From the NCBI GenBank assembly GCA_009746045.1, contig RPFO01000167.1, positions 2,066,652 through 2,130,651 of the forward strand: a DNA stretch of 64,000 nucleotides. The letters run 5' to 3'. This document shows, one piece after another, positions 1,679 to 61,500 of this stretch. The position numbers and the translations under genes were made by a program. Origin of the DNA: Mesostigma viride. Its lineage: Eukaryota; Streptophyta; Mesostigmatophyceae; Mesostigmatales; Mesostigmataceae. How positions within the stretch are numbered: the stretch's first letter is position 1; every line of letters starts with the position of its first letter. The notes under the pieces are model-generated. The model was not told the origin of the DNA. It ran no database searches and worked only from the letters and a program-made list of their open reading frames with translations.

Positions 1679-4600
1679 TTTGGGCGCGCGGAGGACGTCC
1701 GGCAGCACTTCAAGGGCGCGGAGGGCTACGCGTACGCCTGCGAGCTGTACAGCATGGCGGCCGCGTACCTGGCCATCGCGCACTGCCTCAAGCCGCAGCA
1801 CGCCATCTACAAGACCGCGCTCTCGCTCGTGCACGCAATGGTGAGGGGGGCCAGGATTAGAGCAAGCGTTCCATGATGGGGGGGGGTGGCCATCTGCCAG
1901 ACTGCGCGCTCGCTCGTGTGCGCGATTGTGAGGGCAGTGGTTTCGTAGGGGCATGTGCGGGAGTGCATGTGGTGGTAAGCGGGCGGCGGTGGTAGGGGGC
2001 AGGATAGTGCCCTATCTTATGTCCCTTAAGTATAATATAGTGTATCCCATTAGTATAATATAGTATATCCTTCATTAGTACCCACGTGACGCAGTCTACG
2101 TGATAATTTACCCCATTAGTATAGTATGTCCCTTATCCCTTAAGTATAATATAGTATATCCCATCACTATAGTATCCTTTGCAACAGCATCCTGTGTGAC
2201 AGTATCCTTCTGTTCCCGCCCCCCCCACACCTTTTCGCTCACGCCAACCACCCCCACTGCCCCCCACCCTTGCCGCGCGCAGCTGCCACTCCCCTATCTC
2301 AAGGCGGGCTTCCTGCACGTGTCCACCACGGTGGGCACCGACCACCTGTATGACCAGGAGCAGTGGGTCAAGCGCTGGATCGTGCTGGGGCCGGACTTCT
2401 TGCAACAGGTGGGTGTTTGGGGGGAAAGAGGGGGGGGGGATGGGGGGGGGTCGTTTCGTGACTGGCGCTGTGGCATGCTGGGGCCTGATTTCAGGTGCGT
2501 GGTGGTGGTGTTTTTGGTGGTGGTTGGGGGGAGGGGGTTCCTTGTTTTGTGCCTGTTGATAAAGATTGTGGTGGCAGGGCGGGGGGGCTGATGTCTTGCA
2601 ACAGGTAAGTGAGGGGGGAATCGGTGCCACAAGACAACGTTGAGTAGGTGTAGGGCTGTGCTGGGGCCTGGTTTTCCGCAGCAGTGCAGAGAACCAATCC
2701 AGAAATATCCACAGAAAGCAGTTGAGCGGGGTGAGTCTCGCCACATGGCCTGATCCGTGACTTGGCTTGTACCCAAGCCTGATCCGAAGTGACTGGCAAG
2801 GCGTCCGAAGGTATTGTGACCTCGGTCAGTTCTCCGTCGTCCACTCATGTATGCCATTTTGCACGTCCGCCGCAGTTCATGCAACATCAACTTCGCGCAA
2901 GATGACTGTCATATGCACACACCGCCATGCTGCCATGTGAGGTCATGGCTTGTGCGTCGTTACCTAGGCCATGCACGATGCCTGCAGGCTTCATTTTGCT
3001 TTCCCCTAATCGGCAATTTCCCAGTCCCAGTATCCCCAGTCCCCAAGCCCCTTGTATTAGGGCTATTCCACACTTGGCCCGATTTAGTCAGGCAGTTTTA
3101 GTCAAGTGCGAATACCCCCGAATCCACCATGTCACTTGCCCGCAGTATTTTTATGCTGTCCCCTCGGCTTATGCCAAGCTCCAAAACCCCATAATCTCAT
3201 CACCATCTGGAACACCCCGTCATGCACGCAGGCTGCAGGAGATAGTAGCGTTGTCTGCAGCGCTGTCTTACTTCACTACTATATCATACCCCAATGTGCT
3301 GCACAACCCGCCACGCCATATTCCCACAGGAGACGCCGCCAGCGCCGCGGGGTCCGCCGGGGTCCGCCCCGCCCCCCCCACCCCCACCCGCCCACACGAG
3401 CGAGCCCCCCCTGCACGTCCTCCTGCTGGAGGTGCTCACGGTGGAGCCCACGTGTGACCTTAGCCTGCCGCCGGGGGGAGCCGCATTCTGCCTCACGTTA
3501 CGGGGATTCAAGCAGCTCTACCTGGTGCGTGGGTGGTTTGTGCGTTTGTTTAACTATACATGGCATGGCGTGGCGTGGCGTGGCGTGGCGTGGCATGGCG
3601 TGGCGTGGCGTGGCATGGCATGGCATGGCATGGCATGGCATGGCATGGCATGGCATGGCATGGCATGGCATGGCATGGCATGGCATGGCATGGCATGGCA
3701 TGGCATGGCATGGCATGGCATGGCATGGCATGGCATGGCATGGCATGGCATGGCTCACGTGAATTCTCCAGAATTCTTGCATGTGCTGGTTGCCTCCTTG
3801 ATACTCCATGTAGTACCGTTTCTTCCTCTTGTTACAGGTCTTCAAGCGGCTGTACCTGGCACGCATGTGGTTTGGGCTTTCAGTAATCAACGAGACGATC
3901 ACCCTCTTCTTTTTTTGTGCCTCGTGTTTCGGGGTTTCAAACAGTTATACCTGCCTGTGGGTGTAATCAGTGTCACGTTTGGTATCAGCACCACTACAAG
4001 GCGTACAGAAGGCTAGTGCGTAAGAGGGGGCCAGAGTATTTTTTCCAGCACACGTGTCTACATCATGGTGTTCTTCCCCCCCCCACCACCCACCCACCCC
4101 TTACCCCCCGCAGCCAAAAGTGTATACAAAGTTATACGAGCCATATCCTGCTACGATCTCGCAAGGCAACCCCCAAAACTGGTTGCAAGCCCTGAAACTG
4201 GTCGGATAATGCTTTTCTAGAGCTCGTGCTTGTTACGGTCAAGGCCATGGCACAGGCCATCCCCCACCTTACTGGTGCCGTTGAACAGCTAGCAGGGAGC
4301 ACCAATCCTATTGATGATTGTTTTCATCAACACATTAAGATTTTAGGTGATTTCAGTTGATGGCTTGCAAGGCACACACACACAGAAGGTTTCGTGGCTG
4401 TTTTTTGAAAAAAATTTTGTCGCAAGTTATCTTACCCACCTCTGGTTAGATGATGTTTGGATGGTGCATGTTTTTGGTGCACTACCTGAAAGCCCTTTGC
4501 CTCATAAAATTGTGATGACAAGCATAACCAGTCTAGTGTAATCATCAGAATCGTATAGCCGTCATCATGGCCTCGCGGTCACGATCGGTCATCCCATACC

Positions 4601-58554: not shown

Positions 58555-61500
58555 GAAGGCAAGTCTGCGAGTTTCGACCTCCCCACACCCTCGCGGGGAG
58601 GCAGCGGTGGCTGTAAGTCATGCTCTCACACATCACTTTTCACCCATCACCCTAACCCTAGCCCTAGCCCGGCATTCATCTCGAGACAGCAATCATCTCT
58701 ATAAAGATACTGTTCTTGCTCGCAGTCGGTCTTTTTCCTATGGCCGTATTAAATTTTTTCCGTATATCATCATGATTTGCTGTGTATCTTTTTCCTTATA
58801 TCATCTTGATTCGCTATGGTCTGTTTCTGCTGACAGTTTTGCTGTTGTTCAGGGCTGGGGGTCTTCGGGATCGACCCGGCTGGAGTTTTTGTTTCAATTC
58901 TTGCGGCTTCTCTGCATCCCACTATGCAAATTCATCCTCTTGGCTCCTCTGCACCGCCCCATGCGTGACCATTCTCTCGGCTGTCTCTGCACCGCCCTAT
59001 GCCCCGTCCTATATTCTCCACGTATTTTCTGCTCCGCCCTGTGCAAATCCATTCTTGACGTGGTTTTCTGCCTCGCCCCACCCAGTCGGCGCATCGAGCA
59101 GCAGCCTCAGCTCCCTGGGTGGTGGCGCGCCGTTGGGCCGACGAGCGAGCGTCGATGCGGACCCGTTGGATGCGCTCTTTGACAAGGACGTGAGCGGTGC
59201 GTGTCGGGCTTGTAAATATATTGCTGTGATGATGGGTGGAGGAGGATGTGCGCCGTGATGATGGGTGTTAGGGGCAGGCTGAGTGTTAGGGGCCGGTATG
59301 CTGCGTAAGTAGAGAGGGGTGAGAAGGAGCGGGTGAGGGGCCTGCGTGCTGAGCTAAGAAGGAATGGGAGGGCTTTCGATGTCGGTTGGTGCTTCATGCG
59401 TGTTGCGAGCCCTCAAGAGCATGGCTACCACATCTGCCATGTTACTTGCGGCTTGACGAGCCACATCCGTCACAGCACCTGCACCATACTGAGCTGCTCT
59501 GCTGTGGCCGCCAGCATCGCTCTTAAAGCATGATTCGGCAAACGCTTCAGGACCATTTAGGTCATGCCGTGAAACCGTGCGATTTTCCCTCAACCAACGC
59601 CATGCGCGCGTGTGCCCCCCACCCACGCCCCTTCTGCCACCCACACCAAACACCGCCTCCTCATTACCAGCCCCCTCGCCGCAGAAAGAGAAGAGCGGGG
59701 ACGACAAGAAGAAGGCAGACGCCAAGTCTAAGGTGGGTGGTGTGTACAGGAGTGTAGGTAGACCGAGGTGGGCGCACCGGCAAGGTGGGCGCACACGGCC
59801 GACACCCAAGTCCACGGTGGGTGATGAGCATAGGGACGTAGTCCATGCCACAAGCCTGGTACGTGCGCAAGCACAAGGGGGGTTGGGTTGATGCGTGCAC
59901 AAGCATGGTGGGCGGCGGCCACCCACCACGTTGGGTATGTATTGCAGCAGTGGTGTTTCCTGGGGCAGGGCATCGGCGCGGCACCGGGGGATGGCTTGGC
60001 ACATCTTGGAGTCCAGCAACGCTCTGGGTAGGCACAACAAACACTTGGGGTGGGCACAGTGGGATGCTGGGGGTGGGCATAATGTGATGCTGGGGCAAAC
60101 GCTTGGAACCGACTTCCAGTCGTCACACGAGACCTTTGCCTTGTGGGACGCTAGCGTACGTGGCCTGAGCCATGATGCAGAGAGAGTACTCTGTGGCCTG
60201 CTCGCTTGTGGCAGTGTGAGAAGCTAGCGCAAGCCAGTCGAGGACGCTGTCCCCCCTTCACATTGTGTACAGGGGCTTGAGATTCCTTTGTTTGGCAACC
60301 ACATGACGCAGCTGCGTGCCAATTGATTAATGAATAAACTACTTGGCCTGCTTGGGAAACGGCATCTCTAGCACTGGCTGGTTTTTCCCGACCGCCATTT
60401 CGCATGCGTTTTGTGAATGTGTATGTGTTGCATGCGCGTGCATCGCGGCATTTCTCACATGCGCTTGCCACTGTCACCACATGTACATGCCCCTTCCTTC
60501 TGTATCACCAAGAGCCGCCTTCCCTCCTCCCCCTCCTCCCCTTCTTTCCCCCCCCCCCCCCCGCTCTCACTTTCCCCCCCACCCCCTGCCCCACCTCTGC
60601 AGTCAGACAAGTCCAAGAAATCCAAGTCTTCACCCAAGAAGAAAACAGCCAAGAAGAAGGACAGCAAGGGGGGCAGCTCTGCGGATGGTATGAGGACACC
60701 TAGTGTGCTTTTCAGCGATGGCTAGCTTTGGTTGCATCCTTGAAGAGGCATAGGATGATGCTTAGTAACATTTAACTAGCAATCGCATGTACGTGTAGTA
60801 CTCGACGCACGCCACGCTAGACGCTATTGCTGTGTTTTATAAGGAAATGATGTCAAGGCCCTGCACGTTGTGTAGATGCCACAAGCGAGTGCAGTGCATC
60901 CCCCATCTTGCTCTGAAGTGACCTGTGGGTAGGCATTGCAATCGGCACCGGCTGCTTGGGTGTCCACTGTGCGGCACCAAGACAAACCAGGAGGTAGATA
61001 AGAATGCTCGGCCGTGCGCCTACCGGCACCTGCTTGCGCCAATGAGCTCTTTGTTTCTCTGCGTGTGCGTTCCTTTGGGCCCTTATCCCCGCTGCTCGTG
61101 CGTTCCTGTGACCTCCCCTAATATGGGTCCCTAAACTGGGCCCTCATCCCCCCAGCTGCATCGGACGCCTCGGATGCGTCGGATGTCTCCCCCAAGGCAT
61201 CCCGACCAGGAAGCAGCGCAGCCACTCCCAAGAAGTCAGCCAAGGACGCAGGAGACAGCGAGAGTTCGGACAAGGAGCCGCCCCTCAGCACGCATAGCAG
61301 CTTGAAGACAGCCCCGCCCATGCTGGGAACCAGGGAGGTGAGATTTCTTTTACCTTCAACGCGGTTCATTTCTTTGCAGCGCTGTTTTTCTACTCGCTTG
61401 TTTTGAGTAGGACGTTCAGAGCATGGGGAGGTGAGAATTTGCCATAGCAGATTTTCACGGGCATGCCAGCTTTGATTGAGATGGCACGGCACCCAAGGGG

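Follow-up and report, generated by a model that had tools for sequence, protein, structure and literature searches.

Why should introns contain, downstream of their 5′ splice sites, imperfect copies of the very exon ends that precede them? The question is raised by a 64,000-nt stretch of the Mesostigma viride genome (contig RPFO01000167.1, here C1502:2066652-2130651; referred to as the window), which belongs to an assembly of 439,911,974 bp (439.9 Mb) in 2,243 contigs. A sequence-only reading of this window had reported such copies, each comprising an exon end together with its donor and here called echoes, in 8 of 16 introns; seven of these eight held when 18 introns were modelled, and echoes were also found in genes outside the window. 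The explanation that we favour, with a probability of roughly three in four, is that introns lengthen via recurrent local duplications straddling exon-intron junctions, mostly at the 5′ splice site, with the outermost splice site staying in use.

The 18 introns of the window are of the GT-AG type, belong to five genes and were placed via reading-frame continuity; the putative gene names (PH/TPR-type, HMG-CoA-reductase-like, kinase, disordered) come from reading the translations. For the donor test, the last 50 exon bases and the first 12 intron bases were aligned with the rest of their own intron after masking of simple repeats, and the score was compared with dinucleotide shuffles of that intron (200 each in the window test) at a cut of p<0.01. 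As the shuffles are random, borderline introns move by one between runs. The reverse complement, foreign (non-cognate) introns and the exon-interior segment from -122 to -60, which extends into the preceding intron where exons are short, were used as controls. In 7 of the 18 window introns an exon-end copy beat all 200 shuffles, with cognate scores of 158 for PH1, 102 for PH2, 138 for PH3, 119 for HMGR2, 163 for KIN2, 98 for KIN4 and 92 for DIS4 (labels as in Table 1), and the top score among 306 non-cognate window pairs was 92. The eighth copy that had been reported, at 61417-61443, matches 13 of 14 bases around the donor motif and with a score of 61 (p 0.175) lies within chance, and a second copy named for KIN4 (50037-50056) was not recovered separately on realignment. 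When the window was compared with itself without gene models, the exon ends PH1, PH3, HMGR2 and KIN2 were among 29 near direct pairs, as against 10 near inverted pairs.

Outside the window, 52 homology-supported introns of the same assembly were analysed, comprising 27 from kinesin, 18 from CCT and 7 from dynein genes. These genes were multi-exon clusters of Pfam search matches chosen before their sequence was inspected, and their introns were derived from frame, model continuity and splice scores. Among 36 spliced kinesin pairs, three were dropped as allelic (L031) and six by cuts on total splice score (4.5), donor score (3) and length agreement (within 4 amino acids); three further pairs yielded no splice, and a model gap above 30 led to a pair being skipped. 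The 18 CCT introns were retained from 22 spliced pairs, of which one was dropped as allelic (L052) and three by the kinesin cuts, with one additional pair unspliced; all seven dynein introns were kept, from 2 of 10 chosen loci. The mean length across the 63 introns modelled in the window and in the kinesin and CCT genes was 833 bp. A self-trained gene finder run on the window and 200 kb upstream of it proposed 61 introns, which were not used because it favoured transposon-like open frames.

Donor echoes at p<0.01 were present in 29 of the 70 introns, that is in 28 of the 63 from the window, kinesin and CCT and in one of the seven from dynein. Their occurrence in 13 of 27 kinesin and 7 of 18 CCT introns bears out the earlier suggestion of a process that acts across many genes. 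Scores of at least 100 were reached on the donor side in 19 of 63 own introns versus 1 of 3,656 foreign pairs, and the exon segment from -122 to -60 reached 90 or more in none and 80 or more in one of the 63 introns. No reverse-complement match at p<0.01 was obtained for any of the 70 introns, on the donor side or on the acceptor side. The comparison of cognate exon ends with shuffled and foreign introns, which the sequence-only reading had proposed, returned on this sample a cognate excess confined to the sense strand. That reading had described the copies as direct and exclusively downstream; the orientation was upheld, and the second part proved incomplete, since echoes of the exon start were detected at the acceptor side in 8 of 70 introns (8 of 63, and none of the seven from dynein), so that the process is not confined to 5′ ends either. 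Within the window such a copy lies in HMGR intron 2 (Table 1), and other genes contain them as well. On the acceptor side, scores of at least 100 were obtained for 5 of 63 cognate and 5 of 3,656 non-cognate comparisons. The predominance of donor over acceptor echoes, 29 versus 8 of 70, is significant (Fisher p 9e-5). A looser cut (score 92, query from -60 to +30), at which a few chance matches are possible, yielded 46 echoes, distributed over 30 of the 63 introns from the window, kinesin and CCT, and this set underlies the analyses of GT survival, codon position, frame and distance given below. Echo-bearing introns were longer at the looser cut (median 891 versus 579, p 0.024), and the difference was unclear at the p<0.01 cut (p 0.086).

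The anatomy of the echoes places them at the junction. When a sliding window of 36 nt was moved along 45 introns (window and kinesin), the signal peaked from -28 to +8 and from -16 to +20 around the donor, where 31% and 27% of the windows scored at least 95, versus 0-5% in the exon before -52; in the same scan the first approximately 150 intron bases were raised and a small rise was seen at the acceptor. The aligned exon parts of the echoes measure 13-60 nt, and the donor copies are located between +38 and +629 of the introns, with intron sequence following them. Several copies are nearly exact: L023 holds a 70-nt unit with 97% identity over 100 nt, the donor of L026 recurs at +88, +171 and +254 with 35 identical bases, and the copies in L029 (58 nt, 97%), L038 (30 nt, 97%) and L030 (58 nt, 93%) are similarly well preserved. 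The youngest copies represent local duplications that span the donor, with tandem and spaced arrangements each making up about half of ten well-preserved echoes. About five of the ten fit a tandem unit when L038, with an 8-nt spacer, and L026, L029 and KIN2, in which the spacer recurs after the copy, are added to L023. The idea that introns grow by small duplications at their 5′ splice sites is supported by the near-exact young cases, although its tandem form applies to no more than roughly one in two of those that are well preserved. In 9 of 28 testable introns the spacer was encountered again after the copy at a z of about 4 or more; six of these nine have ungapped cores shorter than 25 nt, and because of such weak cores the count of tandem and spaced cases was based on the ten well-preserved echoes.

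According to the favoured explanation, a local duplication across a junction, either tandem or short-spaced and mostly with an offset of about 40-150 nt, would leave the exon-attached, outermost splice site working, so that the mRNA would remain unchanged and the duplicate would turn into intron. Older duplicates would move deeper into the intron and decay neutrally, giving rise to ladders of fossil exon ends, and in introns with more than one echo the nearer echo equalled or exceeded the next one in similarity in 13 of 16 adjacent pairs (sign test p 0.011). A downstream donor copy would be harmless if the first-made donor is the first to be used, whereas an upstream acceptor copy would take precedence and corrupt the mRNA, which may be why donor echoes outnumber acceptor echoes. 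With respect to donor choice, of the 34 copies with an intact GT, 13 equal or exceed the real donor in score, and the reading frame requires the first donor, which judging from protein continuity would be used even against equal or identical copies (L023, L026).

Several observations weigh against this explanation. At p<0.01, 41 of the 70 donors are without an echo, and in dynein only one of seven has one. By ungapped boundaries just 1 of 10 well-preserved first echoes is tandem (L023), and a spacer without recurrence occurs in L030, L047, L023 (donor 2281), L024 and L025, so spaced templated insertion may be a common event. Over the 46 echoes, identity does not drop with distance (Spearman -0.13, p 0.39). 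Moreover, the sole allelic pair with an echo, L030/L031, is 99.95% identical and has the echo in both copies, and thus provides no polymorphic copy. L051, which is allelic to L052 (98.9% and 93.0% over two parts), showed no significant donor echo, L052 being unscored. The intron differs in length between the members of this second pair, 912 nt versus 4,087 nt, owing to an insertion of about 3 kb.

The alternative that survives best is that duplications fall at random along genes and that those spanning a junction are easier to detect, as the exon copy is conserved; we regard it as unlikely, though deserving serious attention. Exon-anchored pairs do diverge about half as fast and many echoes are old, and among clusters of at least 90% identity the script labels were even, with five donor, five internal and one exon cluster. 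At an identity of at least 95%, where the detection bias is small, four donor-spanning clusters were found versus one internal in 45.0 kb of unmasked intron (rough binomial p 6e-5), and after L047 (-33..+2) and L044 (-36..-1), which end at the junction, had been moved to the donor class, the clusters of at least 90% numbered seven versus four (p 7e-7); the opportunity model behind these p-values is rough and the cluster counts are small. In upstream DNA, eight clusters of at least 95% were counted in 174 kb, which likewise argues against random placement. Donors seem to carry recent duplications at a higher density than intron interiors. Echo-bearing introns are also richer in G at their start (7.5 versus 5.7 G in the first 15 bases, p 0.0011), and the 63 introns outside dynein show a strong strand asymmetry, being rich in G where they begin and in C where they end, with G minus C at +9.9 over the initial 60 bases and at -15.2 over the final 60. 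The G-rich starts are compatible with a hot spot due to R-loops or fork stalling but do not demonstrate it, because the copying of G-rich donors itself enriches intron starts in G. A duplication hot spot at the 5′ splice junction itself, with a ratchet adding G-rich donors and a first-donor rule hiding the steps from selection, is put forward tentatively and would not be our first bet; its cause, perhaps co-transcriptional R-loops or fork stalling where the intron begins rich in G, is a guess.

The fate of the copies bears on the other alternatives. Selection might retain them as decoys or as reserve 5′ splice sites, for instance for U1 recruitment or regulated splicing, as the sequence-only reading had considered. 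The GT was kept in 34 of 46 copies, slightly above most neighbouring dinucleotides, and was lost in 12; its survival of 73% among 44 diverged copies is far from invariant and falls within the range of eight exon dinucleotides (55-77%), with four intron dinucleotides at 41-64%. Differences between copy and exon at codon positions 1, 2 and 3 amounted to 69/420, 68/435 and 117/432 (16.4, 15.6 and 27.1%; p 1.5e-5), which we read as a copy that probably changes equally at all codon positions and a living exon whose additional changes are mostly silent ones at the third position. The copies vary freely at codon positions 1 and 2, and retention as decoys is consequently held to be very improbable. 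Even less credence is given to the view that the copies are small alternative exons, arisen by tandem partial exon duplication and occasionally spliced in. Four window copies have an in-frame AG 21-27 nt before the donor, and the gene finder predicted 21642-21668 as an exon. Against this, acceptor-like sites before the copies are at background level (10.9% versus 8.0% over score 3), the offsets of the 46 echoes show no frame preference and are not multiples of three, and a coding constraint is unsupported, since a constrained copy would change little at positions 1 and 2. Least credible of all is the insertion of a mobile, introner-like element with a long target duplication, which would suit the unduplicated spacer between some copies and originals and is contradicted by the 5′ 400 nt of the 63 introns, where no common family and just three matches of 16-23 nt (E 0.008) were detected. 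The microexon, decoy and introner readings were set aside on these grounds, namely codon positions, GT survival, acceptor scores and the lack of a common family. The copies behave as inert intron, with a neutral-looking decay.

Related processes have been described elsewhere. In the consulted sections of a study of Daphnia, internal direct repeats were reported in 55 of 90 neo-introns versus 100 of 617 other introns; staggered double-strand breaks were given as their origin, they were taken as a passive means of intron lengthening, and those in common with a neighbouring exon measured 4-12 bp (PMC4202315). As far as these sections go, the likeness lies in above-chance direct repeats inside introns, here at 29 of 70 donors; in M. 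viride, however, the repeats are of about 30-100 nt and comprise the exon end and splice site, and the introns were not selected as new. Intron gain via tandem genomic duplication of an AGGT-containing exon segment is treated in the consulted parts of two further reports (PMC3443670, PMC2891723). Judged by those parts, both cases involve tandem duplication and a splice-site choice that keeps the mRNA unchanged, but there an intron is born within an exon from two AGGT copies, whereas here an existing intron lengthens; the hallmark of that route, an exon-end copy at the 3′ end of the intron that supplies the acceptor, is not seen, the donor copies lying where stated above. For the published M. 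viride genome (441,847,188 bp), the consulted text gives a mean intron length of 1,141.9 bp and credits intron length to repetitive elements, which occupy 30.1% of intron space, and the word 'splice' is absent from the main text (PMC6947507). Among the open-access matches listed, no title or abstract opening describes junction-anchored exon-end copies across introns. Gao and Lynch reportedly dealt in 2009 with intragenic duplication as a source of intron sequence. The present observation extends known duplication-based intron change to junction-anchored lengthening. Long introns are usually explained by transposable elements, and some 40% of the introns examined here carry fossils of another route, which are anchored at splice sites and can be dated against the conserved exon. 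They also amount to a natural experiment on donor choice, in which identical donors lie tens of bases apart and protein continuity demands the first.

Table 1. Exon ends with donors, and their copies, in the window (positions are those of the window)
Feature	Position	Strand	Details
PH1, PH/TPR-type gene, exon end + donor	1802..1847	+	donor 1841; frame continuity
PH1, exon end + donor copy in intron	1889..1934	+	38/46 identical, offset 87
PH2, next exon end + donor	2372..2438	+	donor 2409
PH2, exon-end copy	2465..2533	+	45/69
PH2, second exon-end copy	2583..2620	+	31/40, GTAAGT donor
PH2, third, weaker copy	2631-2684	+	score 89
PH3, PH-domain exon end + donor	3486..3546	+	donor 3525
PH3, copy	3820..3880	+	46/61, donor GT lost
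PH3, second copy	3915..3983	+	48/69
HMGR2, HMG-CoA-reductase-like gene, exon 2 end + donor	21532..21562	+	donor 21556
HMGR2, exon 2 end + donor copy	21645..21675	+	27/31
HMGR, stretch directly before HMGR2 copy	21598..21640	+	matches 22999-23041, 43 nt, 86%
HMGR intron 2, acceptor-side copy (intron end + exon 3 start)	22930..22952	+	score 98, above all 200 shuffles
KIN2, kinase exon 2 end + donor	53515..53587	-	donor 53538
KIN2, exon-end + donor copy	53258..53335	-	59/79
KIN2, shorter donor copy	53462..53493	-	24/32, score 88, weaker
KIN4, kinase exon 4 end + donor	50230..50269	-	donor 50249
KIN4, exon-end copy	49960..49997	-	31/41, donor GT changed
DIS4, disordered gene, exon 4 end + donor	59708..59757	+	donor 59733
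DIS4, exon end + donor copy	59791..59841	+	36/51

Within the HMG-CoA-reductase-like gene, the segment at 22999-23041 sits just before the true acceptor of intron 2. Because the stretch before the HMGR2 copy resembles this stretch before the true acceptor, the exon end and a then-short intron may have been duplicated here as one unit. The same intron contains, at 22721-22792, about ten copies of CCCTAAA, the plant-type telomere repeat.

Further features were observed in the window apart from the echoes. Inverted terminal repeats TTAACCCCTAAATGGTC flank a 1.7-kb stretch (27914-29610) inside retrotransposon-like sequence, and its TTAA ends are reminiscent of a piggyBac-type insertion. An array of (CACGCACA)n extends over 2.1 kb at 33932-36014 and is 99% regular. 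A tRNA-Ser-like match at 9972-10054 lies in sequence that recurs in the window and is possibly a short interspersed nuclear element. The segments 43529-43695 and 43929-44102 form a direct repeat with 94% identity over 174 nt, and by eye the stretch 43529-44102 resembles 11184-11400 and 45480-45670 on the other strand. Outside the window, contig C2011 carries long uninterrupted frames that cover most of the models for the chaperonin and tRNA-synthetase families, and this looks like a bacterial contig within the assembly.

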